Under the pieces are notes generated by a model. It searched no databases and was not told the DNA's origin. It saw only the letters and a program-made list of their open reading frames with translations. Positions 4,121-22,629 of a DNA stretch of 64,000 bases are shown here, piece after piece; position 1 is the stretch's first letter, and each line of letters starts with the position of its first letter. Origin of the DNA: Actinomyces sp. 432 (GTDB lineage: Bacteria; Actinomycetota; Actinomycetes; Actinomycetales; Actinomycetaceae); NCBI RefSeq assembly GCF_009930875.1, contig NZ_CP025249.1, forward strand, positions 186,001 to 250,000. The letters are read 5' to 3'. The translations under genes were made by a program, and so were the position numbers.

Positions 4121-4263
4121 CTACGCCGGTTCGCGGTCTGCTACGCCGGTTCACCGTTTACTACGTCGGTTCACCGTTTGCTACGCCACTTAGCCGTTTG
4201 CTGAAGGCCTCTGAGGTATTCAGCAGGCCGTTAACTAGCGTTGTTAACGGCGAAGTGGCGTAG
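4121..4263 (+). repeat. Head-to-head 20-bp repeat array (CTACGCCGGTTCACCGTTTG type)
   Basis: Four direct units of exactly 20 bp lie at 4121-4140, 4141-4160, 4161-4180 and 4181-4200. The consensus is CTACGCCGGTTCACCGTTTG. A hairpin centre follows at 4201-4226 (CTGAAGG ... GTATTCAGCAG), then an inverted unit at 4244-4263 (TTAACGGCGAAGTGGCGTAG). The same centre and flanks recur at 16291-16400. There is no ORF of note in it. Confidence 0.85.
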
Positions 4264-4650
4264 TAAAGGCGCGGCGGGGTGGTGGGTGCTCGCGGTCGTT
4301 TGCGGCGGTAGTGTCGGTGCGGCGGGGACGCCTGGAGGTGACGAGAGCGGTGGTTGCGAGTGTTGCGTGTGATGCAGTTGGGGTGTGTGGGGTTGGTGTG
4401 GCGCCTGCCGGGAGGTTACAATTCGGTCTACGGTACAAAGATAGGTGCATTTTGACCCTGACTTTTCTGCATGACTTCGTTGAAAGTTGGTGGCTGGAGG
4501 GGGTCTGAGGGGTGTCGGTGGCGCTTGGCTTGTTTTCAACGAAAGGTGGTAGTTTTGGCCTGGTGCCAGTCGGTTCCGTGGGGTGCTTGCGGAGCCGGTG
4601 GCGATCCCGGGCCTGGAAGTGGCGGTATGGCGCGGTTTCCAGGGGTAGGG
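4264..4650. other. Gene-free stretch before the CRISPR array, possible leader
   Basis: No protein-like reading frame is seen over 387 bases. Base composition is lower in GC and T/G-rich on the + strand, unlike the neighbouring genes. It directly precedes the best-conserved CRISPR repeats, and the repeats decay away from it, so it is the likely leader side of the array. Nothing else could be recognised. Confidence 0.4.
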
Positions 4651-4833
4651 GTCAGGAAGCACCTCGCACCTCAAGGTGCATTAAGACGACTCTGCGGCGG
4701 GCGCTTCGAAATCGAGGATCTTGTCAGGAAGCACCTCGCACCTCAAGGTGCATTAAGACACCTTGTTCATGGTCGGGATGATTCGCATGGGGCTCCGTCA
4801 GGAAGCACCTCGTACCTCCAGGTGCGTTAGGAC
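4651..4833 (+). CRISPR. Orphan CRISPR mini-array: three 37-bp repeats, two spacers
   Basis: Repeats lie at 4651-4687, 4723-4759 and 4797-4833. The first two are identical; the third has five substitutions. Spacers are 4688-4722 (35 nt) and 4760-4796 (37 nt). Each repeat starts GTCAGGAAGCACCTCG, contains the inverted pair GCACCT-CA-AGGTGC, and ends ATTAAGAC. That last octamer resembles the ATTGAAAC crRNA handle of type I and III systems, which fits transcription on the + strand. A further half repeat (first 20 bases intact) starts at 5036. Decay towards the right is typical of the leader-distal end. No cas gene is present in the window, so the type is not assigned. Confidence 0.85.
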
Positions 4834-4872
4834 TATTTGCGGGTGGCCGCTGTGGTGTGCGGTGTCAAAATT

Positions 4873-4972
4873 GATGACAAACGCCGCGCGCACCAGCGGA
4901 CTTCGGTCCGAGCCTGGCATGGTTCCAACGATTCGTTCGTGGCTGCCGGCGTCGTTGGCGCCGTTTGTCATC
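4873..4972. repeat. Inverted repeat, 100-bp unit between CRISPR remnants
   Basis: The left arm GATGACAAACGCCGC (4873-4887) and right arm GCGCCGTTTGTCATC (4958-4972) are inverted copies with one mismatch in 15. Between them lies a smaller palindrome, CGGACTTCGGTCCG, at about 4899-4912. It sits between the third CRISPR repeat and the half repeat at 5036, where roughly three repeat-spacer units would fit. It may therefore be an insertion into the array or a degraded part of it. Confidence 0.5.
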
Positions 4973-5035
4973 GATCCGGACACCGCCGGCCGTTGCCCGG
5001 TGGATTTCCGTGGCGATGGCGGGCCACTGCGCTTC

Positions 5036-5055
5036 GTCAGGAAGCACCTCGCACC
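5036..5055 (+). repeat. Half CRISPR repeat, detached from the array
   Basis: The 20 bases GTCAGGAAGCACCTCGCACC are identical to the 5' part of the CRISPR repeat at 4651. The 3' part that would carry the AAGGTGC arm and the handle has diverged. It marks the probable former trailer end of the array, 202 bases beyond the last full repeat. Confidence 0.8.
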
Positions 5056-5236
5056 CTTGCGGGCCTGTTGGTCTTGGGTCTGTGTCGTCGATGCTCACCA
5101 GTCGCTTTCGATGCCGGAGCCCAATGATGCGATGTGCTGCCCATGTGCTGACGACTGGCGAATGACGGGCCGACGTGCTTGAGAGCATGGGATGGACATC
5201 CAAGATGTGCATGGGCCCGACCCACGCAATACGAAA

Positions 5237-5337
5237 TACGACCTTGGGGTACGTTTCACGACCACCCCGGGGTCGTGAAACGTACCCCAAGGTCGTAAAA
5301 CGTCACGAAGGTCGTCGAGTCTCCCGCCACGGTCGTG
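5237..5337. repeat. Head-to-head repeat array with 27-bp perfect palindrome (ACGACC type)
   Basis: Forward cores ACGACC start at 5238 and 5258. Reverse cores GGTCGT start at 5271, 5291, 5310 and 5331, so spacing is 19-21 bp. The arms 5237-5263 and 5271-5297 are perfect inverted copies over 27 bases with a 7-base centre (ACCCCGG). A sister copy with compensated base changes lies at 22569-22629, and a longer related array at 13719-13819. Confidence 0.85.
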
Positions 5338-5654
5338 CGGCACGTCGCCTGCAACCGCCAACCGGGGGCCCGACCCTGCCGGACACGTCGGGCACTTCGC
5401 CAAGGCCCCGCACTACCTCCCCAGCCCTTACGGCCCCGAACGACTCATTTGTCCGGATCTTCTGGTTCGTGGGAGTGGTGGTTCATCCGGTGGTGGCAGG
5501 TGCGCGTCCGGGTGAGTTGGCCTGCGGGGACCGGCGTTTGTGGCGTGCTGACAACGGCGCTTGTGGCGTGCGGGTGCAGACGGTTGGCCTTCGGGGCTGT
5601 GCTGGCGCGGTGGTTGGTAATGTTCCGAGGCAGGTCGGTCCGTCTGTTCCGGCC
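5338..5654. other. Gene-free stretch between two repeat arrays
   Basis: No credible coding region is seen. There is a short near-tandem duplication around 5528-5570 (two copies of TTGTGGCGTGC about 22 bases apart). Otherwise no recognisable signal. Confidence 0.4.
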
Positions 5655-5827
5655 GACGGTTCGTACATTCTCGCGACGGTTCGTATGTTCTGGTCGACGA
5701 TTCGTACCCTGTGGTGACGGTTCGTACGGTAGGGGTACGTCGCGTCACCGAAAGGTACGAAGCGTCGGTGCAAAGGTACGAACCGTCATGCGAAGTGCCG
5801 AACCGTCGCGGGAAGCGCCGAACCCTC
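5655..5827. repeat. Head-to-head repeat array (GACGGTTCGTAC type)
   Basis: Forward cores GACGGTTCGTAC or one-base variants start at 5655, 5675, 5696 and 5716. Reverse cores GTACGAACCGTC or variants start at 5755, 5776, 5796 and 5816. Spacing is 20-21 bp throughout. The same core with the same spacing forms a second array at 22229-22382. Confidence 0.9.
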
Positions 5828-5863
5828 ACCCCGGGACGCACGGGTGAACCGCCCCAGGCCGCG

Positions 5864-7274
5864 GGTGGGTCTCGTAGTGTGGTGGCAATTCCCGCGAGGG
5901 GTTCCCTGTGGTAGGGGGCATCGTGGGAGCCCAGATTCTCGACCAAGATTCACCAGGAAGGTTCACCCACGATGCCCGAGAACAAGTCTGCCGTGTCCAC
6001 ACTGATCGCGGAAGTCCTTGCGGACCCCGACCTGGCCCACAATGATGTCTTCCGCCGGCTGCTTCAGGCCGGCCTGCAGGACCTCGTGGACGCCGAAGCC
6101 TCCGCGGTGATCGGTGCCGACAGGTACGAGCGCACCGAGAGGCGCACCAACCGTCGTAACGGCACCCGTCCCAGAAGGCTGGCGACCACCGCCGGGGAGG
6201 TTGACCTGGCCATCCCCAAACTGAGGCAGGGCTCGTTCTTCCCGTCCCTGCTGTCCCCGCGTAAGCGGGTGGACAAGGCCCTGTACGCAGTGATCTGCCA
6301 GGCCTGGATCGAGGGTGTGTCCACCCGGAAGGTCGATGACCTGGTTAAGGCCCTGGGCAACGAGTCCGGGATCTGGCAGGGCGACCGTCTCGCGGGTCTG
6401 CAAGGACATAGACGAGGGCGTGCACGAGTTCCTGTCCCGACCGTTGGATCACACCTGGTTCCCCTACCTGTTCGTTGACGCCACCTACGTGGACGTAAGG
6501 CTGGGCCACCGGGTCGTCTCCCAGGCCCTGGTAGTGGCCACCGGGGTCTCGGCCCAGGGCAGGAGGGAGATCCTGGGCACGGGGCGTCGGGGACGCGGAG
6601 ACCACGGACTTTTGGACCGCTTTTCTGCGGTCCTTGCGCGAGCGGGGGCTGAAAGTGCCTACCCAGGAGGACCCACAGGGGGTGGTGCTGGTAACCAGCG
6701 ATGCCCACTGGGGCATCAAGAACGCGGTCAAGGCGATCCTGCCGGGCGCCTCGTGGCAGCGGTGCCGAGTGCACTTCGCCCGCAACATCGGCCTCCAAGC
6801 TCGGCTCGGCCCGCTCCAAGCCCGTAAACGCCCTGATTACGACGATCTTCGCTCAGACCACTGGCGAGGCCGTGAAGGACACTTACAAGCAGGTCACAGC
6901 CTCTCTGCGTTCCTCGTTCCCTGAGATAGCCGACATGCTGGCCGAGGCCGAGCCGGACCTGACCGCGTTCGCCGCCTTCCCCAGGGAGCACTGGCCCAAG
7001 ATCTGGTCCAACAACCCCATTGAGCGTCTCAACCGTGAGACCGGGCGCCGCGCGGATGTGGTCCAGGTCTTCCCCGACCGAGACTCCGTCACCAGACTGG
7101 TCGGTGCCGTCCTACAGGAGCAGCACGAGGAATGGCAGTACGGCGAACGCCGCTACCTGTCGGAGACCTCCCTGCGCCACCTCACACGGATCCTCCACGA
7201 ACAAGCCGAAACCACCCACCCCATCATGGCCATCACCGCCTAGAACATTTACACCACACCAAGAGACTTGACCC
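5864..7274 (+). mobile_element. IS256-family insertion sequence with 7-8 bp target duplication
   Basis: The element is about 1411 bp and holds one transposase region. Imperfect terminal inverted repeats are visible: left GGTGGGTCTCGTAGTGTGGT, and right, read inward on the other strand, GGGTCAAGTCTCTTGGTGTG. Both ends are flanked by the direct repeat AGGCCGCG (5856-5863 and 7275-7282), as expected from the 8-9 bp duplication of this family. The intact duplication shows a fairly recent insertion. Left and right ends differ by a one-base offset, so the exact left boundary is uncertain by one base. Confidence 0.85.
5972..7243 (+). pseudogene. IS256-family transposase, interrupted by three frameshifts
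   Basis: Joined across frames the protein is a full-length Mutator/IS256 transposase of about 420 residues. It starts MPENKSAVSTLIAEVLADPD. The DDE residues are recognisable: D in FVDATYVDVR, D in VTSDAHWGIKNAV, and E in the IERLNRE motif near 7020. Shifts occur near 6378, at the GGGG run near 6582 and at GG near 6793. Each is one base (the first could be two). Because the IS still has its target duplication, three independent real mutations in a young insertion would be surprising. Sequence error is a fair alternative. A ribosome binding site (AGGAAGG) precedes the ATG. Confidence 0.85.
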
Positions 7275-7355
7275 AGGCCGCGCCCCCTCGCAGTGCTGCG
7301 TGGCCCGCACGGTGCCGTGGGCGTGGTCCGTACGTGGTTGTCTTTAGCAGGCCGT

Positions 7356-7447
7356 CCCGGTCACGCCCCGCCGGCCCGGTCACGCCCCCCGCCAACACGG
7401 CCGGACCCCACCGGCCCGGTCACGACCTTGCCGTCCCGAACGTGACC
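7356..7447. repeat. Repeat array, CCCGGTCACG type
   Basis: CCCGGTCACG occurs at 7356-7365, 7375-7384 and 7415-7424, with a decayed unit near 7395, giving a period of about 20 bp. An inverted CGTGACC follows at 7441-7447. It lies between the IS256 element and the 3' end of the BASS transporter gene. It shows the same architecture as the other arrays in this window with a different core. Confidence 0.65.
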
Positions 7448-7548
7448 ACCACATCGCGGACCGCCCCTGAACACCACACCCGCAAACTGGAAGAGCCGAT
7501 AAACCGTGGAAGAGACGGCCCTGCCTCGACCGGAGCAGCGCCGGGAGG

Positions 7549-8691
7549 CTAGTCGTCAACGTCGGCGCGCTCGCGCAATTGGCGGATCGTGGCCAGCGGG
7601 TCCTCACCCTCGGGGAAGCCGCGCAGGCGCCAGTACATGGCGAGCACCGAGCCGGTGATCGTGTGCCAGAAAGTCGCCACCGCGCACGGCGCCGCCACCG
7701 CGGCGCCGAGGTAGGCGGCGGCCAGGGTGGAGCCGAGTCCGGCGTTCTGCAGGCCGGTCTCAATGGAGATGGTGCGCCGGTCGCGCCGGGATACCCCAAT
7801 GAGGCGTGCCACCGCATAACCCAGGCCGTAGCCGATGGCGTTCTCGACGGCGATCGCCACGAACATCAGCATCCCGGCGGTGGCGATCAGTGCCTGGCTG
7901 CGCGAGACCACTGCGGCCACCACCCCGGCGATGGCAATCACCGACACCCAGGGCATGATCGGCTGAACCCGCGCCACCTGCCGGTGGGCGAACATGTTGA
8001 GCAGCAGCCCCGCCCCCACTGGCAGCAGCACGATCTGCACAATGGACAGCGCCATCGACCCCGCGGGCACCTCCATATAGGTACCCGCCAGCCACAGCGT
8101 GAGCAGCGGGGTGACCACGGGGGCGAGCATGGTGGACAGCGCGGTCATTGACACGCTCAGGGCGGTGTTGCCCTTGGCCAGGAAGCTGCACACATTGGAC
8201 GTCGTACCGCCGGGCACGCAGCCGATGAGGATGATGCCAACCTTCAGCTCGTCCGGCAGCGGGACTACGTGCGCGACCGTCCAGCCGACCAGCGGCATCA
8301 CCGAGAACTGCGAGAGCACGCCGACCACCACCGGCACCGGCCGCCGCGCGATCAGGGTGAAGTCCGGCACCGAAAGGGTCATGCCCATACCCAGCATGGT
8401 CACGGCCAGCAGCGGCGTCATGTAGTTGGACAGGGGCACGAAGGTGCTGGGGGAGAAGAAGGCCGCCAGGAAGGCCGCGAACATGATCAGGGGGAAGACG
8501 GTGACCGCGATGCGGGCACTGCGTTCCTGACGCGCATCCTCGACGCCGGTGCGCCGGGCCTCGGTGTGCTCGGCGGCGCCGCGCTGGGCGTCGGCACGGT
8601 CGGCCTCGTTTCCACCTCCTCGGCGGAGGCCGAGCTGATCGGTGGTGGGCGGCGCGGGCCGCGTGCTGGCGTCTTTGGCAGAGGGGGTCAT
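7549..8691 (-). CDS. Bile acid:sodium symporter (BASS) family transporter
   Basis: This is a 380-residue inner-membrane protein with about nine to ten hydrophobic segments after a hydrophilic 60-residue N-terminus. Family signatures include the first helix pair (TVFPLIMFAAFLAAFFSP), GMGMTLSVPDF, and the substrate/sodium region IGCVPGGTTSNVCSFLAKGN. A second signature is SIETGLQNAGLGSTLA. BASS proteins import organic anions (bile acids, keto acids, pantoate and others) with sodium; the substrate here is not predictable. The start at 8691 is preceded by GAGGATCC. The long polar N-terminus is unusual for the family. It stands alone, divergent from the SMP-30 gene. Confidence 0.88.
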   Translation of the reverse strand: MTPSAKDASTRPAPPTTDQLGLRRGGGNEADRADAQRGAAEHTEARRTGVEDARQERSARIAVTVFPLIMFAAFLAAFFSPSTFVPLSNYMTPLLAVTMLGMGMTLSVPDFTLIARRPVPVVVGVLSQFSVMPLVGWTVAHVVPLPDELKVGIILIGCVPGGTTSNVCSFLAKGNTALSVSMTALSTMLAPVVTPLLTLWLAGTYMEVPAGSMALSIVQIVLLPVGAGLLLNMFAHRQVARVQPIMPWVSVIAIAGVVAAVVSRSQALIATAGMLMFVAIAVENAIGYGLGYAVARLIGVSRRDRRTISIETGLQNAGLGSTLAAAYLGAAVAAPCAVATFWHTITGSVLAMYWRLRGFPEGEDPLATIRQLRERADVDD

Positions 8692-8903
8692 GGGATCCTC
8701 GGAATGCGGGAGGCGGGGTGGGTATCCGCCTTCACGGTAGGTCCCTCCGCGCGCCGACGGCGCCGCAGTCCAACCGGCGGACGGGCGCCTCGGCGCAGTC
8801 AGTGGGCGCCCCCGTGCCGCGGTCCGCCGCAGCCTAGGGACGCGGAGGCTCAACGCGTGGGAGTTCGGGCGCCGTGACCGCCACGCACCCGCCCGCACGC
8901 GCA

Positions 8904-8909
8904 TACCCT
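8904..8909 (+). promoter_or_regulatory. -10 box of a leaderless mRNA
   Basis: TACCCT ends six bases before the ATG at 8916 and there is no Shine-Dalgarno sequence between them. Confidence 0.6.
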
Positions 8910-8915
8910 TGACCC

Positions 8916-9794
8916 ATGCGAGCCCAGCGCATCACCGACACCATCGCCTACCACGCCGAGGGCCCCTGCTGGTGGGAGGCCACCGGCCGACTCCGCTTCG
9001 TGGACATGCTCGCCGGCGCCGTCGTCGAACTGGACGAGGCCGCCCCGGGCGGGCACCGCCGCCTGCCGGTCGGGTCCGCCGTCGCCTCCGTGATCCGGCC
9101 CCGCGTAGGCGGCGGTGCGATCGTCGCCACCGAGCACGGGATCTCCCTGTCCCGCCGCGAGGACCTGAGTGACCTCGCCCCCGCGGCGACGCTTTTCGCG
9201 GACCCGGCCGTGCGCACCAACGAGGGCGGCTGCGACCCGGGCGGTCGCTTCTGGATCGGCACCATGCCGTACGCGAAGACGCCCGGCGCCGCCACCATGT
9301 ACCGCTGGGACGGCCTGGGCACGGAGCCGCTGACCGCCTGGGGCGGCGCCACCATCTGCAACGGGCTCGGCTTCTCGCCCGACTCCCAAACCGCCTACTG
9401 GACGGACACGCCCACCGGCACCATCGTCGCCATGGACTACCGGCCCGACGACGCCGACCGCGGCGGCCTGACCGATCCGCGCCCCTTCGTGTCTATCGAC
9501 CCCGCCGCCGGTCATCCGGACGGGCTTTGCGTGGACGCCGACGGCGGGGTGTGGGTCGCCCTGAACGGCGGGGCGGCCGTGCACCGCTACGGACCCGACG
9601 GCGACCTGGACGCCGTCGTCGAGCTGCCGGTGCGGCAGGTCACCGCCTGCACCTTCGGCGGCGACGACTACACAACCCTGTTCATCACCACCTCCCGCGA
9701 GAACCTGCCCGACGACGTCGAACCCGCCGCCGGATCGATCTTCGCCGTCGAGCCCGGCGTGCGCGGACTGGCGCCCCTGCCCTTCGGAAAGTAG
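8916..9794 (+). CDS. SMP-30/gluconolactonase family lactonase
   Basis: This 292-residue protein has the SMP-30/regucalcin six-bladed propeller pattern. Metal-ligand regions are visible: the glutamate in YHAEGPCWWE (residue 15), asparagine in RTNEGGCDPGGRFWIGTM, asparagine in ICNGLGFSPD, and aspartate in GHPDGLCVDADGGVWVA. Members hydrolyse sugar lactones such as gluconolactone in the cytoplasm. No sugar dehydrogenase is adjacent, so the physiological lactone is unknown. There is no signal peptide. The start is supported by a -10 box six bases upstream, which implies leaderless translation. Confidence 0.9.
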   Translation: MRAQRITDTIAYHAEGPCWWEATGRLRFVDMLAGAVVELDEAAPGGHRRLPVGSAVASVIRPRVGGGAIVATEHGISLSRREDLSDLAPAATLFADPAVRTNEGGCDPGGRFWIGTMPYAKTPGAATMYRWDGLGTEPLTAWGGATICNGLGFSPDSQTAYWTDTPTGTIVAMDYRPDDADRGGLTDPRPFVSIDPAAGHPDGLCVDADGGVWVALNGGAAVHRYGPDGDLDAVVELPVRQVTACTFGGDDYTTLFITTSRENLPDDVEPAAGSIFAVEPGVRGLAPLPFGK

Positions 9795-9829
9795 GGCAGG
9801 GGCGCAGCCGGGCGCCGGGCCGGCCCGGT

Positions 9830-10438
9830 TCAGCCCTGGCGGTGGAAGCGCTCCTTGAGGCGGGCGACGCGCTCGTCCCAGTTCTCCTTGCGCTCCTGCC
9901 GACGCTCCTGGCGCATTACGCGCGTCGCCTCGCGGTGGGCGGCCTTGGCGGCCTCCTGCGCCGCCTCCAGCTCCGCCAGTACCTCAGCGGCGGGACGCCG
10001 CACCACCACGCCGTCGAGCGGGGCTACCACCCCGTCCAGCACTTCCTCCGCGTACTCGCGCGCCTCGGCAAAGATGGCCGTCGTGCCCGCGGGCAGGCGC
10101 GAGCTGAACTCGCCGATGGCGGTCTCGGCACGGTTGACCCGCTCGACGTCGACGAAGCCGCCCGCCAGGGCGCCGGCGCCCCAGCCGAGCAGCATCCCCA
10201 GCGGCCCACCCAGGATGCCAACCACCATGCCGATCAGTCCGCCGGAGAACGCGCCGTCGCCGATGCGGGAGTCCGCGCCCTCAGCCAGGTGCAGGTGGCC
10301 GTCCGGCTCCCGCTCAGCAATGATCGCGGCAGGGACCGATACCCTGCCCGCCTGCGCCGCCTGCCGGATGTCGCTGAGGGCCTCGTAGGCCTTACTGGAC
10401 TCCGCGAAGGTGATGACTAGGAAGTTGTGCGCCGTCAT
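9830..10438 (-). CDS. DUF1269 family membrane-associated protein
   Basis: This 202-residue protein starts MTAHNFLVITF, a strand common to DUF1269 proteins. It then has a glycine-rich hydrophobic hairpin at residues 60-95 (GGLIGMVVGILGGPLGMLLG). After a stretch with alternating strands it ends in a highly charged, probably coiled-coil helix (about residues 150-202, rich in E, R and K). The family is often stress induced, with no settled function. GGAGACGG precedes the ATG. It converges with the SMP-30 gene, 35 bases apart. Confidence 0.8.
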   Translation of the reverse strand: MTAHNFLVITFAESSKAYEALSDIRQAAQAGRVSVPAAIIAEREPDGHLHLAEGADSRIGDGAFSGGLIGMVVGILGGPLGMLLGWGAGALAGGFVDVERVNRAETAIGEFSSRLPAGTTAIFAEAREYAEEVLDGVVAPLDGVVVRRPAAEVLAELEAAQEAAKAAHREATRVMRQERRQERKENWDERVARLKERFHRQG

Positions 10439-10719
10439 GTTTTCCGTCTCCTGTCCGGTAGTGGTTGAGGATCCCCTGAGGATCGATTACGTAGAAAGTA
10501 AACAGCTAATGTTGTGCTAGCGCGCCGGAGTTGGAGCTGAATTCAGGGATCTGGAGTGGTTTTCATAGAGTTGGCTCAGTATTATCCGGGCGGCTTCCCG
10601 GCATGCTTGAAGAGCACAGTAAGAGACAGGCGGAGACGGGTGTGGTGCACCTTGTGAATTCATGGGTTCGGTGGGGCCGCAATCAGGTCGTAAGAAGGAC
10701 TGCAGGTAACTATGCGGGT

Positions 10720-12036
10720 GTGGATCCACTACTGCGCAACTGTCTGCTCGTACTGGCGTTCGTGCTCATTGGCGCCTGTTTCTCCGCGGCGGAGATGGCG
10801 CTGGTATCTCTGCGCCCCACCCAGGTCGACGAGCTGGCTCGGCGCGGCCGCTCCGGGAGCGCGGTGAAACGCCTGACCGCTGATTCCAATCAGTTCCTTT
10901 CAGCCGTCCAGGTGGGCGTGACGATAACCGGGTTCTTCTCCGCGTCCTTCGGGGCCGCCCAGATCGCCCCTGCGTTGGCGCCCGCCCTGACCGCCGTCGG
11001 GGTGGGCGACGCGACCGCTGCCGCGATTGCCTTCGTTGCGGTCACCCTGCTGATCGCGTACCTGTCGGTTGTGGTGGGGGAGCTGGTGCCCAAGCGCATT
11101 GCCATGCAGTCGGCCCGGACCGTTGCCCTGGTGGTGGCGCGACCGCTCGCGGCGATCACCGGGGCTCTGCGCCCAGTGATCTGGCTGCTGGGCGCCTCCA
11201 CCAACGGCCTGCTGCGGCTACTGGGACGCGACCCGGCGGCCCGGACCGACTCCGTGGGTCTTGGCGAGCTACGCACTCTCATCCAGGCGCAGGAGAGCCT
11301 GGGGCGGGAGGAGCGGCGGATGGTGGTGGATCTGCTGTCGGTGGGGGAGCGCACGGTGGCTGAGGTGATGACACCGCGCCCCGAGGTTGAGTTCGTTGAC
11401 GCGGAGCTGCGGTTGGCGCAGGCACGGGCCGCACTGTCCGGTCTGGAGCACTCCCGCTACCCGGTGCGCCGGGGACGGAATGACGACGACGTCGTCGGCT
11501 ACGTGCACCTGCGCGACCTGATCGCCCCCGCCGACGAGGCGCGCACAGTCGGCCAGATCGCGCGCGACATTCTGCTGCTCCCGGCTACGGTGCCCGTGGT
11601 GTCCGCGCTGACGCAGATGCGCGCGGCCAGTGCGCATATCGCCCTGGTTGTGGACGAGTACGGCGGAACCGATGGGATCGTCACGGTGGAGGACGTGGTT
11701 GAGGAATTCACCGGGCAGATCGCCGATGAGTATGACCGGGAGGAGCCCGCGGTGGTGAGCCACGACGGCGTCGTCGTAGTCACCGGGCTCATCTCCCGTG
11801 CTGACCTTGCCCGGGAACTGGGCCGTGAGCTGCCCGACGGCCCCTTCGACACGCTTGGTGGCTTCATCATGGCCGAGCTGGGGCGGATGCCGAAGGTGGG
11901 CGACGTGGTTGCCTGGGAGCGCCTGCGTCTGAAGGTAATTGCGCTGGACGGCCGCCGGGTGGGCAAGGTCGAGGTCGCCTCGCCCGACCCGCCGGCGGGC
12001 CGCCCCACCCGCACGCCCCGTCAGGACGCGTGCTGA
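10720..12036 (+). CDS. CNNM/CBS-domain membrane protein (HlyC/CorC family)
   Basis: The product is about 438 residues. The order is a DUF21/CNNM transmembrane domain (residues 1-180), a CBS pair (about 210-330, with ERTVAEVMTPRPEVEFVDAE and DEYGGTDGIVTVEDVVEEF), and a C-terminal CorC/HlyC domain (about 350-430). Such proteins are linked to magnesium or other cation efflux. The GTG at 10720 is chosen because the family begins there (VDPLLRN...). An AACTAT -10-like box also ends six bases upstream, which fits leaderless translation. The frame stays open to an ATG at 10531, but that extension looks non-conserved. The 3' end overlaps the convergent tspO gene by 16 bases. Confidence 0.88.
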   Translation: MDPLLRNCLLVLAFVLIGACFSAAEMALVSLRPTQVDELARRGRSGSAVKRLTADSNQFLSAVQVGVTITGFFSASFGAAQIAPALAPALTAVGVGDATAAAIAFVAVTLLIAYLSVVVGELVPKRIAMQSARTVALVVARPLAAITGALRPVIWLLGASTNGLLRLLGRDPAARTDSVGLGELRTLIQAQESLGREERRMVVDLLSVGERTVAEVMTPRPEVEFVDAELRLAQARAALSGLEHSRYPVRRGRNDDDVVGYVHLRDLIAPADEARTVGQIARDILLLPATVPVVSALTQMRAASAHIALVVDEYGGTDGIVTVEDVVEEFTGQIADEYDREEPAVVSHDGVVVVTGLISRADLARELGRELPDGPFDTLGGFIMAELGRMPKVGDVVAWERLRLKVIALDGRRVGKVEVASPDPPAGRPTRTPRQDAC

Positions 12037-12542: not shown

Positions 12543-12752
12543 TTGGTGGCCCTCCATTGTTCCCGCGTACTCGTTTTTCGAGTACTGCTTCATGGAGGTT
12601 ATTGAGCCGAGGTGAAGGGGAGCCCGGCATGGGCGAACAAGTGCGTGGGTAGGCGCCCGGCAGTCGCGGAGGACCGCCTGGAGCCGGGCTGATGCGTCTG
12701 CGCCCGAACATGGCGCCACGCCGTACGGCCGCGCGAGTCCGCGCCGGACCGG

Positions 12753-13508: not shown

Positions 13509-13514
13509 AGATCG

Positions 13515-13520: not shown

Positions 13521-13544
13521 ACTGATCGCCGCCCGCCCTCCCCA

Positions 13545-13819: not shown

Positions 13820-14051
13820 CAACGCCTGTCGGGAAGAGTGCTCAAGCACCCTAAGGCGCCCAATCGCCCGATCGTTAGTCCTCCAACTCCCCTAAGCGCC
13901 AAGTCCCGATCCCTCAGCGCCAGAGAGGAGCACATGAGCTGGATTAATGCTGCCGGTCTCACGGTTGCCCAAGGATGGGCCGGCACCGGCCACACCACCG
14001 CAGCGTTAGACACCGCTGCGTCCCTCCCCACTCAAGTACCCAGGAGGTCCC

Positions 14052-15452: not shown

Positions 15453-15664
15453 GGCTCACGCATCCGCGGCATCGTGCTGGGCTCGGTGGGACTGGATCTG
15501 CTGGAGCGGGAGCTGGTGAGTTGACGCGCATCATTTTGGGTCAGGCGCGTCGACGTCGGGATAGGCTCCGGATGACGGTTTGAGACCCGGATTCGGGTGG
15601 AGGCGTGCTGCTCGGCTAGGGGCTTCCCCGCCGAGTTCATGCAGTTCCGGAAGGGAGGGCGACG

Positions 15665-16282
15665 GTGCGCAGGTCATTGAGCCGAGTTCCCGGCATGACG
15701 GTCACCGACCTCGTCCCGGTCAACGAGGACGACCCAGGTGGCTCTAACGGCTCACAGTGGGGGCGGGCGCAGGTTTTGGTCAAGTACAACACGGCAGACA
15801 ACCCCAACATTGTCGTCAATGAGTACATCGCCAACAGAATCGCGATCGCCCTGGGCATCCCCACGCCCCTCGGTGACCTGTGGTTCGACCCGTCGGCCGG
15901 CGAACCGGCATGGGTTGTCGCCGAGATAGGGGAGCCGGGAAACCACTTCCCGCCGCCGCAGGAGGCCGCACTGCGCTCCATTCCCGAGAAGACGCGGGCC
16001 CTCATGGAGGCATTTGATGCGCTCATCTACAACACTGACCGCCATGAGGAGAACATCCTGGCCGACAACGATGGCCATGCCTGGGTAGTAGACCACGACG
16101 GGGCTCTTTTCGGCGACATCAAAGATGACCGGGCGACGGGGCTGCTGAGTACCAAGGATCGCACCGACTACGACCCAATGGGCTTCTGGGGAAATCTGCC
16201 TGCTACTTCGGCAGCCAGGGAACGTGCCATCGCCCACATCCGGGAGGGTAAGGGCGTCATCGGGTGGGCGTCGACGACGTAG
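15665..16282 (+). CDS. HipA-like serine/threonine kinase domain protein (stand-alone)
   Basis: The protein is 205 residues and starts at GTG with GAGGG six bases upstream. It has the minimal HipA/PI3K-like kinase elements: a lysine strand (AQVLVKYNT), a helix with NEYIANRIA, the catalytic loop LIYNTDRHEENIL (about 120-132, with D and N ligands), and the metal motif VVDHDGALFG. The HipA N-terminal domain and the HipB antitoxin partner are both missing. It therefore resembles single-domain HipA-like kinases rather than the persister toxin pair. It stands alone, followed directly by a repeat array. The target is unknown. Confidence 0.75.
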   Translation: MRRSLSRVPGMTVTDLVPVNEDDPGGSNGSQWGRAQVLVKYNTADNPNIVVNEYIANRIAIALGIPTPLGDLWFDPSAGEPAWVVAEIGEPGNHFPPPQEAALRSIPEKTRALMEAFDALIYNTDRHEENILADNDGHAWVVDHDGALFGDIKDDRATGLLSTKDRTDYDPMGFWGNLPATSAARERAIAHIREGKGVIGWASTT

Positions 16283-16290
16283 GATCATTT

Positions 16291-16400
16291 GCAACGCCAC
16301 TTCGGGGTTAACAACGCCTGTTAACGGCCTGCTGAAGGGCTGCGAGGTATACAGCAGGCCGTTAAGTAGCGTTGTTAACGTCCAACCGGCGCAGCAGACA
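16291..16400. repeat. Second copy of the 4121-type repeat array
   Basis: Two forward units (CAACGCC...) about 20 bp apart lead to the centre CTGAAGGGCTGCGAGGTATA then CAGCAG. The reverse half GCCGTTAAGTAGCGTTGTTA is nearly identical to 4228-4247 (one mismatch). The hairpin CTGCTG ... CAGCAG is conserved although its loop differs. It lies just after the HipA-like kinase gene. Confidence 0.8.
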
Positions 16401-16551
16401 CCTCACCCGGCACAACCACCACACCCTCGAACCGGAAGAGCCACTTCGACGGGTCTGTGGAGACGGTCGCCGCGCTGACCCGGGCGTGAGCGCATCCCGT
16501 TGATCGCGACCGGTGGCCGGAAGAGCCATGGCGGGGGCGGCCTGGCCGCGG

Positions 16552-16557
16552 CACAAT
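16552..16557 (+). promoter_or_regulatory. -10 box of a leaderless mRNA
   Basis: CACAAT ends seven bases before the ATG at 16565, and no ribosome binding site is present. Confidence 0.5.
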
Positions 16558-16564
16558 CGGGCCC

Positions 16565-18001
16565 ATGACCCGTCCCGTCCGCGACCTGTCCCGGCCCACC
16601 ATGCCCTGCTCCGCTGTGCAGGCGCGCATGGCCGAGGAGACCGCCGCCCGCGCCGCGGCGGCGGGCCCCGCCCCGGCACTGCCCGAGGACGTCGGCGCCG
16701 AGGCCGGCCTGCGCGCCGAGCTGGCCGAGGCCGTCGACTCCCTCGCGCCGGAGCTGGTGGCGCTGTCGCGGGACCTGCACGCCCACCCGGAGGTCGGCTA
16801 CGCCGAGCACCACGCGGTCGCCGCCGTCGCCGAACTGCTGCGCGCCCACGGCATTACCCCGAGTGTGGGCGTGTTCGGCATGGATACGGCCCTGCGGGCG
16901 GAAATCGGCACCGTCGCCGCGACCGATGCCGCAGAGCACGGGGAGTCGCGAGACGCCGATGAGGCGCAGCCGCCCGCCACCGCCGGCTCCCACGTCCCGA
17001 CCATGGCGATCCTGGCGGAGTACGACGCCCTGCCCGGCGTCGGCCACGGCTGCGGACACAACGTCATGTGCGCCAACTCGGTGGGCGCCTTCCTCGCGCT
17101 GGCCGAGCTTGAACGCCGCCGCCCTGGAGCCCTGCCCGGCCGCGTCATCCTGCAGACCACGCCGGCCGAGGAGTCCGACACCGCCAAGGAGATCCTCGCC
17201 CAGCGCGGCATGCTCGACGGCGTCGACGCCGCCATCCAGACCCACGCCTACGCCCACGACCTGGCCGACCAGACCTGGCTGGGGGTGCGCCGCATGAGCG
17301 CCGTGTACACCGGTATCCCCTCCCACGCCTCCTCCCAGCCGTTCATGGGGCGCAACGCCCTGGACGCGGCTACTCTGGTGCTTACCGGCCTGGGCCTGCT
17401 GCGCCAGCAGATCCTGCCCATGGACCGGGTCCACGCCGTCGTCGACGACGGCGGGCAGGTCGCCAACGTCATCCCCGAGCGCGCCGAGCTCAACCTCATG
17501 GTCCGCTCCAAGTATCCCGAGACGCTCAAGGACCTGGTGGGGCGCGTGGAGGACCTGCTGCGCGGGGCGGCGCTGATGACCGGCACGGGGGTGGAGATCA
17601 TTACCGACGCCAACACCAATGAGATGCCGGTGCGGTCCAACGCCCCGCTGCTTCAGGCCTGGGTGCGTTCCCAGCGGGAGCGCGGCCGCGACCCGCTGCC
17701 CGCCGGGGTGGTGACGGAGACGGTTGCGGCGGGCACCGACTTCGGGAACGTGTCGCTGCGCGTGCCCGGCATTCACCCGCTCATCAAGGTCACCGACCGC
17801 GACGACGTCGCCCTGCACACCCGCGAGATGGCCGCGGCCGCGGGCTCGCCCACCGGTGACGCCGCCGCCGTCGACGGCGCCTACGGGCTGGCCGCCGTCG
17901 CCCTGGACTGGCTTCACGACGCCGAGTTGCGCGACGCCGTGCGCGCCGACTTCGAGGCCGCCGGCGGGGCCGTGGACGTCGCCGGATTCTGGGAGGAGTG
18001 A
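16565..18001 (+). CDS. M20 family amidohydrolase / peptidase
   Basis: The protein is 478 residues with an M20D pattern. It has SRDLHAHPEVGYAEHHA (about 63-79) and the di-metal ligands in HGCGHNVMCANSVGAF (about 162-177). The general base pair is in TTPAEESDTAKEI, and the dimerisation domain opens with SAVYTGIPSHASSQPFMGRN. The C-terminal histidine follows in DRDDVALHTREM. Closest relatives are the p-aminobenzoyl-glutamate hydrolase (AbgB)-like and aminoacylase groups, which cleave amide bonds of N-acyl amino acids; I cannot choose a substrate. There is an unusual 45-residue Ala/Glu-rich N-terminus. The start is supported by a -10 box seven bases upstream. Confidence 0.88.
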   Translation: MTRPVRDLSRPTMPCSAVQARMAEETAARAAAAGPAPALPEDVGAEAGLRAELAEAVDSLAPELVALSRDLHAHPEVGYAEHHAVAAVAELLRAHGITPSVGVFGMDTALRAEIGTVAATDAAEHGESRDADEAQPPATAGSHVPTMAILAEYDALPGVGHGCGHNVMCANSVGAFLALAELERRRPGALPGRVILQTTPAEESDTAKEILAQRGMLDGVDAAIQTHAYAHDLADQTWLGVRRMSAVYTGIPSHASSQPFMGRNALDAATLVLTGLGLLRQQILPMDRVHAVVDDGGQVANVIPERAELNLMVRSKYPETLKDLVGRVEDLLRGAALMTGTGVEIITDANTNEMPVRSNAPLLQAWVRSQRERGRDPLPAGVVTETVAAGTDFGNVSLRVPGIHPLIKVTDRDDVALHTREMAAAAGSPTGDAAAVDGAYGLAAVALDWLHDAELRDAVRADFEAAGGAVDVAGFWEE

Positions 18002-18114
18002 GTCGGGCGACGTCGCGCCGTGGCGGCCCGCCCCTGGATGGGGCGGCCGAAGCCGGGCGCAGCCGATCTGCCACGGTGCGTGCGGCAGGTCCGGGTCCCG
18101 GCCCCGGCGGCGCG

Positions 18115-19865
18115 TTACGCGGCCAGCGCCTCGCGCATGACGTCCAGGCCCACGCTGCCCAGGCGCAGCGCCCGGGTGTGGAAGTCCTTCAGGGACTCCC
18201 CGCGGCCCAGCGCCTCGTCGCGGGTCGCCTCCCACAGACGCTGGCCAACCGCGTAGGAGGGCGCCTGCCCCGGGAAGCCCAGGTAGCGGTCCAACTCGAA
18301 GCGCAGGAAGGACTCTGTCATCGCCACGTTGCGGCGCAGGAAGACCCAGGCGGAGTCGGCGTCCCAGGCGCCGTCGCCGACGCCGGGCAGCTCGGCCAGC
18401 TCCGGCGGGCGCCGCTTGCCCAGGTGCACGCCGATGTCCAGCACCACGCGGGCGGCCCGCAGCCGCTGGGAGTCGAGCACGCCCATGCGGTCGCCGGGGT
18501 CGTCCTGGAAGCCGAGGTCGGCCATCAGCTGCTCGGCGTACAGGGCCCAGCCCTCGCCGTGACCGCTGACCCAGCAGGCCAGGCGGCGCCAGGCGTTGAG
18601 TTCGTCGCGCACATAGGTCTGCATGCCGACCTGCAGGTGGTGCCCGGGCACGCCCTCATGGAAGACGGTGGTGCGCTCCTGCCAGGCGGCGAAGGTGTCC
18701 GTCCCCTCCGGCACGGACCACCACATGCGCCCGGGCCGGGTGAAGTCGTCGCTCGGGCCCGTGTAGTAGATGCCGCCGGTGGCCGACGGCGCGATGCGGC
18801 ACTCCAGGGTGCGCAGCGGGGCGGGGATGTCGAAGTGGGTGCCGTCCAGCACCGCAATGGCCTCATCCGCGGTGCGCTGCATCCAAGCCTGTAGGGCGGC
18901 GGTGCCGTGGATGGTGCGCGCCGGGTCGGCGTTGAGCCGGTCCATGGCCTCGCGCACGCTCACGCCCTCGCCATACAGCTGCGCGGCGATCGCCCGCTGC
19001 TCGGCGTCGATGGCTGCCAGCCGCTCGCGGCCCCACTCGTAGGTCTCATCCAGGTCGACTGTGGCACCCAGGAACTGGCGGCTGAAGCGGGCGTAGCGCT
19101 CGCGGCCCACGGCGTCCACCTCACCGGCCAGCGGCGCGATCCGTTCGCCCAGGAAGTCGGCAATGCGGGCGTAGGCGGCGCGGGCCTGCGCGGAGGCGTT
19201 ACGCAGCTCCGCCTGCAGCGACTCGGACAGGGGTGCGCCGTCGGCGGTGGTGGCGGCGTCGATGAGGGCCGTGTAGGAGCTGGAGGACTCCGCCGCCTGG
19301 GCTCGGGACTGGTTGATGCAGGCCTCCACCTGGCGGCGGGCGGCCACGTCCCCGCGGCTGGCTGCCAGGCGCAGCGAGTCGGCGTACTCACGCAGGGCCC
19401 GCGGCACATCGCGAAGGCAGGCGGCGAAGTCCGCCCAGTCGGCCTCGATGGCGGTGGGCAGGTTGTCGAACAGGTCCCGCAGGTTCTGGATGGGGGAGTC
19501 GATGTTGTCCAGGCGGCGCAGCGCCTCGCCGGCCTCGGCGGACTCAATGCTGACGCCCAGCCGCTCGCGCATAGCGGCAACGGTCACCCGGTCGACCGCG
19601 TCAACCGGGGCGACCTGCTCCAGCTCGGTGAGTGTGCGGCGGTCCAGCTCGGTCAGCGTCTCGAGCGCCTCGGGGGAGTAGCCGTCCAGTTCGCCGCGGC
19701 GGCCGGGCAGGCCCACGGACACGGCGAACTCGGGGACAGGTCCACCAGGCGCTCCACGTAGCGCTCGGCAACGGCATCCACGGCGGTGGGGCGGCGGGTG
19801 GAGCCGCCGACGGGCCGGGCCGCAGCGGGCGGCGGGGAGGGGATGTCGGAGGGAGTCTTGGTCAT
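18115..19865 (-). pseudogene. DUF885 family putative metallopeptidase with one frameshift
   Basis: Read across one shift the protein is about 583 residues. It starts MTKTPSDIPSPPPAAARPVG at 19865 and enters DUF885 proper at EFAVSVGLPG. The zinc-peptidase-like motif VFHEGVPGHHLQVGMQ (HExxH-like variant HEGVPGHH) and SGHGEGWALYAEQL are present. The C-terminal half is fully conserved. The shift is at the GGGG run 19732-19735 (CCCC on the coding strand); one added base joins VERLVDLSP to EFAVSVG. Family members are predicted zinc hydrolases of unknown substrate. The rest of the frame is open for over 550 codons, which argues that the break is not old. Confidence 0.85.
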
Positions 19866-20091
19866 GCGCTGAGACTAGGCCACAGGGAGGTTGTCTCCAG
19901 CTCCGGAGAGCTTCGCGATGCGTGCGGCCGCAGACGAAAACGGTCAGCGCGCGCACGGAACCGGGGGCTCCAGATGCGTTCGAGCGGGGCCCGGGCGCGG
20001 CGCACGCTTAAGCCTCTTGCCTATCCGGCTTGTCGGCAAGTTTTGCCTGATATTCCAACGTTCATCTATCCAGGGTGAAGGACACCGATCG

Positions 20092-20130
20092 GCTCCTGCG
20101 TGCGCCGAGGCTGCTGGCGCACGCAGGAGC
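20092..20130. terminator. Stem-loop downstream of the TrmB regulator
   Basis: GCTCCTGCGTGCGCC (20092-20106) and GGCGCACGCAGGAGC (20116-20130) form a perfect 15-bp stem with a 9-base loop. It lies 131 bases after the stop of the minus-strand TrmB gene. There is no clear U tract. Confidence 0.6.
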
Positions 20131-20260
20131 GGTCTCGCCACTCAAACGGATCATCGGTTTCCGCATATTTCCGCGGAATCGCTGGAGCCCCATCGACTCT
20201 AAGCGTGCGCCGCCCACGTCAGGGCGGACTCCCTGCGCGGGAGTCTGGGTGGGATTCGGT

Positions 20261-21061
20261 TCAGTTCAGGGGAGCGTACTTGTCCCGCAGTTTCTGAAGA
20301 CCGGGGCCGAAGCTCCGCTCCAGTACGTCCCCGTGGCGTGCCAGCATCTCTAACTTGTACAGGTCGTGCCGTACGAGCTCGGTCACGGGCACCACCAGAC
20401 CGGGGTGGCTGGTCCAGGCGGCGCGCGAGTGCGCCCCGGCGGAGACGTTCCCGGCAACGAGTTCGCGGTCGTCGATCGAGACGACCACCCACCTGCCGCC
20501 CAGCCCGGCTGTGACGGTGTCTGTGGCGGGGTGGGGGTGGACGGTCGCACAGTCGAGGTCGATCTCGCCATAACCGACGATGATGATTTCCACGTCGCGG
20601 TCTGCGGCCCGACGCAGACTGTCTTCCAGGGCGGGCACGTCCTGCGCCCACAGTTCCGCGAGGATGCGGTGCTGCGCGGCGGCGATGAGTCGGTTGGCCC
20701 TCTCGATGATGGCGGCCCGTCCCTGTAGATCCCAGATGGCGCCATCGTGGACGGCATCGGCCGCGAAGGCGGACAAGGACGCCTCGGCGGCATCGAGGCT
20801 GTCGTTGAAGCGAGAGCGCAGACGGGAGATGAGTTCGCGCGGCGGCAGCGGCGCGTACATCTGGGGATTGCCGCGGGAGACCTGGACGTAGTCGTCGGCG
20901 GCGAGGGAGGCGAGCACCTCGTAGATCTTGGAGCGGGCGATCCCGGCCCGCTTGGCGATGGCATACCCGGTTGCCGGCGCCTCCTCCAGCAGCGCCAGGT
21001 AGGCACGAGACTCCCAGTCGGTCATTCCCAGCGCCTGCAACTGCTCCGCCACTGAAACCAT
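20261..21061 (-). CDS. TrmB family transcriptional regulator
   Basis: The protein is 266 residues. An N-terminal winged helix (residues 1-75: LQALGMTDWESRAYLALLEE ... KRAGIARSKIYEVLASL) is followed by a C-terminal sensor domain with a PLD-like fold (about 105-260). This includes GRAAIIERANRLIAAAQHRI and VVVSIDDRELVAG. TrmB proteins bind palindromic operators and respond to sugars or other small ligands. GGAGGACGG precedes the ATG. The gene is divergent from the DUF2000 gene, and a 19-bp palindrome lies in the shared promoter region, so it probably regulates that gene and itself. Confidence 0.9.
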   Translation of the reverse strand: MVSVAEQLQALGMTDWESRAYLALLEEAPATGYAIAKRAGIARSKIYEVLASLAADDYVQVSRGNPQMYAPLPPRELISRLRSRFNDSLDAAEASLSAFAADAVHDGAIWDLQGRAAIIERANRLIAAAQHRILAELWAQDVPALEDSLRRAADRDVEIIIVGYGEIDLDCATVHPHPATDTVTAGLGGRWVVVSIDDRELVAGNVSAGAHSRAAWTSHPGLVVPVTELVRHDLYKLEMLARHGDVLERSFGPGLQKLRDKYAPLN

Positions 21062-21224
21062 GATCCCCGTCCTCCGATCCTCAACTTGGTGCTGGGGCGG
21101 AGACGACGCCGCGCCCGCACGATGGCCATCGGTCACGATGCATCGGCCGCAGTGTCTGCCGGTGCGTGACGCGCCTGAGCTGCTCGGGCGGCATCGAGTA
21201 CCCCGTCGAGCACCCAATCGGGAG

Positions 21225-21270
21225 CATAGTCACCCCATAAATTGCTCGCATAGTCACCCAATGGGTGACT
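21225..21270. promoter_or_regulatory. Probable operator of the TrmB regulator
   Basis: AGTCACCCA-A-TGGGTGACT at 21252-21270 is a perfect 9+1+9 palindrome. A direct half-site CATAGTCACCC lies at 21225-21235 and again at 21249-21259, 24 bases apart. It sits between the divergent TrmB and DUF2000 genes. Confidence 0.7.
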
Positions 21271-21409
21271 ACTATGTCCCGCGTGGGGCGAGCCCACCCC
21301 GGCCTCAGCCTGAAGTCGAGTTGGTATCCCGCTCTACCCAACCGGTTCGCAGGCGGGGGCAAACGCTGCCCGCCTGTCAAATATCGTCAATGCCGCGAGG
21401 AGACCCGCT

Positions 21410-21826
21410 GTGAGTCAGCAGAACTCGACCGCCCGCAAGATCGTCATTGTCATCGCCGAGGGCACCACTGCCGCCAGGGCCGCGAACGCCAGCGCCCTGT
21501 TGGCACTGACCATTGGCGCCCGCCACGCGGACCTAATCGGGCCGGATGTGCCCGACGCCGATGGACGTATGCACGCCGGCATCTCCGACACCCCCGTTCC
21601 CGTGCTGGTCGCGCCCGCATCCCAGTTGGCCGAACTAGCGCAGGCGCAACCGCCCATCGAGGTCATCGGCTTCACCAAGACGGCGGCCGGGGCGCACACC
21701 TATGACAAGTACACCCGCGCGCTCGCGGCCGTCGCCTCCGCGGACCTGGACTACCTGGCCGTGGCGCTTGTCGGCCCGCGCGCACAGGTCACCTCACTGA
21801 CCGGCTCTCTCCCGCTGTTCCGCTGA
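21410..21826 (+). CDS. DUF2000 family protein
   Basis: This 138-residue cytoplasmic protein starts at GTG, preceded by GAGGAG. It matches the DUF2000 pattern: KIVIVIAEG near the start, ALLALTIGARHADLIGPD, then VPVLVAPASQLAELA and a C-terminal YDKYTRALA ... LAVALVGPR. The family has a peptidyl-tRNA hydrolase II-like fold in solved structures and no assigned role. The neighbouring divergent TrmB regulator and the palindrome between them suggest ligand-controlled expression. Confidence 0.82.
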   Translation: MSQQNSTARKIVIVIAEGTTAARAANASALLALTIGARHADLIGPDVPDADGRMHAGISDTPVPVLVAPASQLAELAQAQPPIEVIGFTKTAAGAHTYDKYTRALAAVASADLDYLAVALVGPRAQVTSLTGSLPLFR

Positions 21827-22228
21827 GTAAATGGGCGTCCGAGTTCGGCACATTGCCGTTGGCGATTGCTGGTGCTGATCGCGAGGTCGTGTGATTCCAA
21901 GGTTCTGCCCGCGGCTGTCGGCGACGTCGGAGTCGTTAATGCTGATCCTGGACAGCGTTGGGCCGACAGGCACGGGACTCGGCGTCAACGGCAGGCCGCG
22001 TGGGCGAACAGGCCTCCCACGCGCCCGACGTCACCCCGGATTCCAGCACCGCGCGCCGTTGCTGGGAGAGCTGGTTTGTGTCTGCGGGGGATGACCCACG
22101 CCGCCGGGCACGTGCCGGTTGAGCTGATGGGCGTGTTCTTCGGGCGGGATTGGTGCGTACGCCGGTGCAGGGCGGCGGTGTAGGGCAGCTAGGGGCAGAA
22201 CGGCGTCGTGGGTCGGCGGCGCTGGGCT
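21827..22228. other. Intergenic region after the DUF2000 gene
   Basis: Four hundred bases with no supported gene. Reading frames here have no recognisable protein character. It leads into the repeat array at 22229. Confidence 0.4.
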
Positions 22229-22382
22229 GACGGTTCGTACCTTTGCACAGACGATTCGTACTTTCTTACAACGGTACGTACCTCTAAGTGCCGAACCGTC
22301 GCAAGAAAGTACGAATCGTTGGCCGGAAAGTACGTACCGTCGCGTCAAGGTACGAATCGTCGGCCCGAAGGTACGCCCCGTC
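22229..22382. repeat. Head-to-head repeat array, second copy of the GACGGTTCGTAC type
   Basis: Forward cores start at 22229, 22250 and 22270. Reverse cores start at 22289, 22309, 22330, 22350 and 22371. Spacing is 20-21 bp. Core variants (GGTTCGTAC, GATTCGTAC, GGTACGTAC) match those at 5655-5827, but spacer sequences differ. Confidence 0.9.
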
Positions 22383-22568
22383 AGACGAGCACCCGAGCGC
22401 GTCTGCAAGGATATGCCCACAACCACCACCGGGACCTCACCCGCACACCACCACGCCCACAAACGCGACGACCCCCGATCTGGGGGTGTAGTGATCGGCT
22501 GTTGTCATCGGTTCAGGTGTGGGGGCGCGCCGAGTAGGCCGACGAGCACTTGGCGGTGGGTGACGATT

Positions 22569-22629
22569 TACGACCTTGGGGTGCGTTTTACGACCCCGGG
22601 GTGGTCGTAAAACGCACCCCAAGGTCGTG
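22569..22629. repeat. Palindromic repeat, sister of the 5237 element
   Basis: The arms 22570-22595 and 22603-22628 are perfect 26-bp inverted copies with a 7-base centre. Compared with 5237-5297, the differences (A/G and C/T within the arm) are matched by the complementary change in the opposite arm. Cores lie at 22569, 22589, 22603 and 22623. Confidence 0.9.

Follow-up and report, generated by a model that had tools for sequence, protein, structure and literature searches.

The window analysed here, 64,000 nucleotides of the Actinomyces sp. 432 genome (contig NZ_CP025249.1, positions 186,001 to 250,000), holds seven arrays of short repeats arranged head to head. In each, about two to eight core units with 6–12 bp conserved follow one another at a 19–21 bp step and are then mirrored in register on the opposite strand. 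The arrays look like an undescribed relative of known gene-end hairpin repeats, and we hold with moderate confidence that they are dispersed palindromic hairpin elements, similar to repetitive extragenic palindromes (REPs) and bacterial interspersed mosaic elements (BIMEs), acting at transcript ends. According to this proposal each array would be a foldback structure, and a transcript entering from either side could fold as one long hairpin that would end, protect or insulate the transcript, whether at the 3' end of a gene or elsewhere between genes. The core may additionally be read by a putative protein, and the families would arise, multiply and replace each other by lineage, without the Y1 transposase of REP-associated tyrosine transposase (RAYT) systems.

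Array loci in the window

Three families cover the seven loci: A (GACGGTTCGTAC; 5655 and 22229), B (CTACGCC-type; 4121 and 16291) and C (ACGACC; 5237, 13719 and 22569). The loci and a doubtful eighth are given below with the z score of the RNA fold; the detector is the core-free search of the next section.

4121–4263, unstranded: family B array; four CTACGCCGGTTC-type units (+) in 20-bp steps and inverted copies (-); fold z -4.90
5237–5337, unstranded: family C array; fold z -8.66 (span folded 5237–5325)
5655–5827, unstranded: family A array; four GACGGTTCGTAC units (+) and five inverted (-); fold of 5657–5806, z -8.16
13715–13824 (13719–13819 in the preliminary description), unstranded: family C array by detector and unit listing; fold z -5.42
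16282–16442, unstranded: family B element; hairpin array 16291–16400 and a right flank ending in CCGGAAGAGCC; fold of 16282–16407, z -6.54
22229–22382, unstranded: family A array by detector and unit listing; fold of 22230–22379, z -6.75
22561–22630 (22569–22629 in the preliminary description), unstranded: family C array; 2+2 units, near-perfect hairpin; fold z -10.59
7356–7447, plus strand: eighth locus, doubtful; CCCGGTCACG in three direct copies, no head-to-head arrangement; fold of 7350–7447, z -0.45

Unit listing, detector and folds bear out the preliminary description, which had named the seven loci as head-to-head arrays with a 19–21 bp period; its differing cores do differ, but they amount to three families and not seven cores. 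In the family A array at 5655, units start at 5655, 5675, 5696 and 5716 (+) and at 5735, 5755, 5776, 5796 and 5816 (-), with steps of 20, 21 and 20, then 19 across the centre, then 20, 21, 20 and 20; the steps of the family mirror about the centre (20, 21, 20, then 19, then 20, 21, 20). The second family A array has starts at 22229, 22250 and 22270 (+) and at 22289, 22309, 22330, 22350 and 22371 (-). For family C, ACGACC stands at 5238 and 5258 (+) and GGTCGT at 5271, 5291, 5310 and 5331 (-) in the first array, and at 13720, 13740 and 13760 (+) and 13773, 13793 and 13813 (-), respectively, in the second; units of the third start at 22570 and 22590 (+) and at 22603 and 22623 (-). The family B units at 4121 start at 4121, 4141, 4161 and 4181 (+), with inverted copies at 4232–4263; the arms 4157–4211 and 4213–4267 are complementary at 73%, and the hairpin tip is GCTGAA...TTCAGC. 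At 16291 the units lie at 16292 and 16312 (+) and at 16363 and 16383 (-). Family B units outside 4121–4172 are poorer, with 2–4 mismatches in 12 and one unit with 1.

The locus at 7356–7447, at first thought a probable array, was dropped: the direct copies lie at 7356, 7375 and 7415, the sole inverted match has three mismatches, 65 of 200 shuffles fold equally well, and the genome holds one other weak match. Clustered regularly interspaced short palindromic repeats (CRISPR), which have direct repeats of 24–48 bp and unique spacers on one strand, were rejected by the 19–21 bp step and the strand switch. An Rfam search of the window gave only three tRNAs above the gathering cut-off, so that the arrays are, as first described, neither CRISPR nor tRNA. 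A second repeat, GTCAGGAAGCACCTCGCACCTCAAGGTGCATTAAGAC, was seen at 4651–4833 and 5031–5055 in three copies at 72–74 bp steps, plus a shorter fourth.

Detection without a given core

The detector was given no core; it required two direct and two inverted 9-mers with at most one mismatch and allowed periods of 12–40. It is strict and missed many copies. In the window it reported five clusters, every one a listed locus, with main periods of 20–21 or 40; it missed 5237–5337 and 16291–16400, where support comes from the unit listing, folding and genome-wide copies. Systematic sampling of 400 kb from this genome (G000) gave 8 clusters at any period, coding DNA included, versus 1, 1, 2, 0 and 1 in shuffles. 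With both periods near 20 (18–22 or double), 3 clusters were found in these 400 kb, all noncoding, versus a mean of 0.2 and a maximum of 2 in 20 shuffles.

Noncoding arrays with both periods at 18–22 or double occurred in all seven Actinomyces genome samples, 37 in total. There were 3, 11 and 7 in the 400-kb samples of G000, G030 and G032, and 5, 5, 4 and 2 in the 200-kb samples of G007, G015, G013 and G024. Every sample exceeds all of its 20 dinucleotide shuffles (shuffle means 0.00–0.20, at most one noncoding), and a few of the 37 arrays are of low complexity. A spacing of about 20 bp is thus commoner than in shuffled sequence, in keeping with the preliminary description. In 400 kb of the outgroup G037 the detector gave 34 clusters regardless of period (9–14 in shuffles); two of them were near 20, both in coding DNA, and no cluster in this sample was mostly noncoding. 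No cluster was detected in 60 kb of G046, and 40 kb of G038 gave one, with periods of 24 and 15.

Copy number and distribution of the families

The window's genome is a single contig of 3,141,809 bases, and similarity searches placed no fewer than 28 arrays of family A, 33 of B and 31 of C in it (at least 92 together); with overlapping matches merged and 40 candidates scored in each search, these counts are lower bounds. The families are patchy and lineage-specific. Family A has many copies in 4 of 36 relatives of the same genus and a single 21-bp match in a fifth, and was found in none of 22 genomes of other genera. Exact family-A pairs turn up in nine stretches of the species collection, which belong without exception to A. 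succiniciruminis, A. ruminis, A. glycerinitolerans and A. ruminicola; the viral contigs held none.

Cores mostly differ between Actinomyces genomes. G007 carries a GGGGACATT family, and G030 has, among others, a GTTGGACC family (E). Family H (GCCGAGGTAGAC, with a step of 19) is strong in G032, with at least 18 places (18 of 35 candidates scored), and has weaker copies in G062 and G064. Two G015 arrays, judged by reading, resemble family B. Further repeat units, GAGGTCGTACTCGGGC-like, ACCGGCACTTGTAACG-like and GTTGGACC (about 20-bp step), stand in the flanks of loci L013, L072 and L054, which suggests additional array families.

Hairpin potential and arm covariation

Nine arrays, the seven of the window with one of family E and one of family H, were folded as RNA. 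Their z scores run from -4.9 to -11.6, and none of 200 shuffles matched any of them. In family H (23 copies), nine pairs are changed on both sides, the covariation score is 0.096 versus 0.056 (0 of 500 shuffles), and 20 double-changed cells compare with 9.5 in shuffles. Family C (27 distinct of 28 copies) has 30 double-changed cells versus 21.3 (5 of 500 shuffles); its number of double-changed pairs is at the shuffle level (267 of 500), and the covariation support is weak for this reason. Arm covariation supports pairing in H and weakly in C, and does not do so in A.

Core conservation

The identity to the majority base was 0.997 in the core and 0.783 in the spacer for family C (28 copies), and 0.834 and 0.668 for family A (50 copies). 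Family A arrays were also compared with the matching places of relatives; of 15 pairs attempted, 14 could be aligned across the array, and they come from 9 loci of the window's genome, with loci shared among pairs. Changes fell at 75 of 1193 core sites, 146 of 871 spacer sites, 604 of 4301 sites in the 200-bp flanks and 1332 of 11437 sites in aligned DNA farther away; the A units were recognised by their similarity to the consensus (at most 4 mismatches in 12), which favours conserved units somewhat. The pair L026/L069 is possibly paralogous, and without it the counts are 71 of 1109, 137 of 797 and 553 of 3991 for core, spacer and flanks. In L039/L123, change was greater in the core than in the flanks. 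Selection, or unit-to-unit conversion, keeps the core.

The cores are conserved beyond the needs of pairing, and a protein-binding reading keeps some probability beside the hairpin. The preliminary description had offered an array for a cooperative DNA-binding protein, and this part of it fits the cores. The arrays would then act as double-stranded DNA for a nucleoid, insulator or partition-like protein, with the 20–21 bp units all facing the same side of the helix and the hairpin arising as a by-product of mirror symmetry. The two 6-bp C cores hold 10 of the 12 never-varying pairs, and in the 14 aligned comparisons of A arrays the core is always less altered than the spacers, and less than the flanks in 13. 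The unit number varies and the step stays at 19–21, and arrays also lie between divergent genes, all of which suits such a protein. However, the arm covariation in H, and weakly in C, is not expected of independent double-stranded sites, and the cores differ between families of one genome and between species, which makes a single conserved reader unlikely. We regard this reading as rather unlikely overall.

Turnover of array-bearing segments and insertion sequences

Relatives differ from the window's genome by the presence or absence of segments of about 100–640 bp and by their shuffled order. At 21835–22809, the segment with the A array (21835–22471) is absent from A. succiniciruminis and the segment at about 22534–22754 with the C array is absent from G030, while G005 has the pieces reordered, plus a GTTGGACC (E-type) array. 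At the position of the B array at 16291, the remaining part of a two-gene stretch is found in G014 and the last part of its second gene in G005; about 54 bases stand in for gene and array in G030 and A. succiniciruminis. Because presence, absence and reordering are seen at the same sites, segments with arrays come and go. Three C loci share 659–1116 bp at 96–98% identity, with a broken transposase relic recognised by reading. The orthologous place of one family-H site was located in relatives.

Several gene remnants lie near these arrays. At 16249–16282 and 16443–16490, by reading, the HipA-like gene at 15695–16282 (match below the cut-off) is shortened by the B element relative to G014, and the gene after it is lost except for its end. 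In L117 (4941–6590; A. ruminicola) and L070 (A. glycerinitolerans) a gene is bracketed by two direct copies of an A array; the matching place in the window's genome has a single A array and no gene. At 5972–7243 of the window, an IS256-family transposase is split into separate frames, and its two pieces match the two ends of NF033543, below the cut-off; an identical copy of 1412 bp is found next to a B array at about genome position 2502250.

Many of the arrays examined are flanked by inward-pointing GGCTCTTCCGG tags. A 27-bp tag, GGCTCTTCCGGTTTGNGGGTGTGGTGG, stands at 16416–16442 and 7471–7497 of the window and has 24 matches in the genome with at most three mismatches, whereas the reversed control has none. 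Its first 15 bases (at most two mismatches), where an array lies within 900 bp in array-centred DNA, point towards the array in 24 of 26 cases. The 27-bp tag is presumably reminiscent of an ISL3-type terminal repeat. No target duplication was recognised by reading at the tags or array ends, and the outer unit number of arrays varies.

Family A arrays serve as targets of a 1.5-kb insertion sequence (IS): all six full copies found (40 of 98 candidates scored) sit inside them, five of them centrally and the sixth in the adjoining spacer. By reading, the 15-bp duplications are identical in three copies and one base off in two, and one copy shows recombined flanks; G005 has a corresponding unoccupied array (L047). 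The transposase, of 437 amino acids, is IS481-like at 199.9 bits, short of the NCBIfam cut-off (224), and has an integrase core domain. The earlier statement that no transposase lies inside the arrays is correct for the window, but these six family-A arrays elsewhere in the genome are split by the IS. This IS, the element first suspected in the transposon-end reading, ends in sequences of its own, and the array is its insertion site.

The comings and goings at the same sites, the patchy families (A in 4 of 36 relatives; H in G032 and more weakly in G062 and G064) and the long shared stretches of three C loci with their transposase relic would suit selfish foldback elements, or elements like miniature inverted-repeat transposable elements (MITEs), without a host role and tolerated between genes. 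The core constraint in arrays common to relatives speaks against them, unless unit conversion explains it, as do the varying outer unit number and the want of recognised fixed ends or target duplications. We take such selfish elements to be possible, on the doubtful side.

Far less credible, in our judgement, are remnant transposon ends or plasmid iterons, that is, multi-site binding arrays of a transposase or Rep protein left after internal deletion. By reading, the IS481-like element likewise has mirrored direct repeats in subterminal position, with a step of about 25 bp, and iterons have a spacing of about two turns. However, no intact element bounded by A, B or C arrays was seen among the loci examined, the IS has its own ends and is inserted within arrays with a 15-bp duplication, the outer unit number varies, and the viral contigs hold no exact family-A pair (plasmid records were not searched).

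Genomic position and transcript ends

The positional analysis used 78 of the 92 places, those in the DNA analysed, and tested 72, with the six IS-split arrays left out and genes called by a simple codon-usage script. None of the 72 tested places lies inside a called gene. Among 74 arrays with both neighbours called, 28 lie between convergent, 32 between co-directional and 14 between divergent genes. Convergent gaps are enriched (28 of 74 versus a length-weighted expectation of 10.7% from the 400-kb sample, p 9e-10).

In co-directional gaps of the seven genomes, the array is nearer to the 3' end of the upstream gene in 18 of 23 cases (p 0.011); seven of the 23 come from G032, without which the count is 11 of 16, and the window's genome shows no clear preference. 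Family H gives the clearest picture: all 17 distinct arrays in G032 lie within 50 bp of a gene 3' end, against 22.7% within 51 bp at random placement (18 rows, two of which are one array; additional G032 copies lie outside this set). Eight of the 17 are between convergent and none between divergent genes, and a predicted stop codon lies inside the array in six of them. For the two G062 copies of family H the distance to a 3' end is 19 and 4 bp. The idea that B arrays occupy 3' ends only was rejected, with 6 of 32 between divergent genes.

Several results weigh against hairpin elements acting at transcript ends. Arm covariation was looked for in family A and none was found: pairing within copies is 0.686 versus 0.731 with swapped arms, and 300 of 300 shuffles are higher. 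The frame is right, as slid frames pair at 30–45%; unlike arms and the rule-based orientation of copies may explain the low pairing. Divergent gaps are not significantly depleted (14 of 74 against 25.5% expected, p 0.23), and arrays in the window's genome are often hundreds of bases off the nearest 3' end. With the seven samples pooled (n = 36), 8 convergent, 23 co-directional and 5 divergent gaps compare with 16.6, 59.9 and 23.4% expected, a weak convergent excess (8 of 36). A terminator scan of window positions 4000–23900 found 6 hairpins with a T-tract versus 6.6 in shuffles, and 5244–5290 is the single such site at an array. In the comparisons with relatives, no clean array-only empty site with a target duplication was seen.

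The canonical intrinsic terminator was rejected as an identity, as T-runs are not above chance. Excerpts of PMC8269248 describe U-lacking (I-shaped) and bidirectional terminators with a strong GC-rich stem and no U-tract in GC-rich bacteria, including Streptomyces, and this makes a transcript-end role without T-tracts plausible. Those terminators are stem-loops; in contrast to the arrays, they form no dispersed sequence families of tandem units as far as these excerpts go. The preliminary suggestion of bidirectional structures that end transcription thus gains from the hairpins, from covariation in two of three families (one weakly), from the convergent excess and from family H at 3' ends, and loses from the divergent sites and the missing T-run.

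Comparison with known repeat systems

The excerpted text of PMC3733652 describes REPs as dispersed extragenic palindromes, often close together in opposite orientation and folding into larger structures, which lie near 3' ends, between convergent and co-directional genes, and whose termini can supply the stop codon TAG. Several families occur per genome, some species-specific; GTAG- and CGTC-tagged families are known, and REPs are targets of insertion sequences (PMC3733652). On this account the Actinomyces arrays have in common with REPs and BIMEs the many dispersed extragenic copies, the convergent and 3' bias, stop-codon supply, use as an IS target and family turnover. They differ in that a REP is its own stem-loop of 20–40 bp (PMC3733652), whereas the arrays pair opposing arms, and these arms are runs of direct repeats at a 19–21 bp step, mirrored in register. 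In the folds, GACGGTTCGTAC, ACGACC and CTACGCC pair with the opposite arm and not with themselves, so that the unit is no imperfect palindrome of 20–40 bp. The words Actinomyces and actinobacteria are absent from the main text of PMC3733652, and our search of the open-access literature found no paper on such repeats in Actinomyces.

REP doublets forming hairpins (REPINs), as far as the excerpts of PMC3116915 describe them, are likewise inverted repeats that form one hairpin with a spacer, in lineage-specific sequence populations; the Actinomyces elements differ in often having more than two units. The RAYT Y1 transposase (PF01797) was found in none of six Actinomyces genomes, compared with 5 of 14 known genomes in the control search, and the identity with REPIN-RAYT systems was rejected on this ground. 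Drosophila Foldback and Galileo-type transposons are eukaryotic elements with long inverted repeats made of short direct repeats, and with a transposase. The likeness is in shape only, as their transposase and terminal features were not found here. The preliminary description knew of no named element with such an architecture, which is right for the tandem-unit geometry and too strong for the behaviour, most of which REPs, BIMEs and REPINs share in the excerpts of PMC3733652 and PMC3116915.

Implications for Actinomyces

A bolder reading, which we think unlikely, would take the arrays for a genus-wide, self-renewing class of foldback arrays. Each lineage would invent its own core on a fixed, mirrored 19–21 bp ladder, the core would be selected through a dedicated protein, spread would follow a mechanism other than Y1 transposases, and several such systems would work in parallel in one genome, terminating transcription and giving shelter to insertion sequences.

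Among small mobile palindromes of bacteria, the REP-type repeats belong to the best known, and many of them are associated with Y1 transposases. Actinomyces has lineage families with one geometry, and the Y1 transposase was not found in the six genomes searched. Two questions thereby become testable, namely how such repeats originate and spread without Y1, and whether it is a protein, an RNA hairpin or both that the step of two turns serves. If the arrays are indeed hairpin elements of transcript ends, they would be ready-made bidirectional 3'-end elements for GC-rich actinobacteria.

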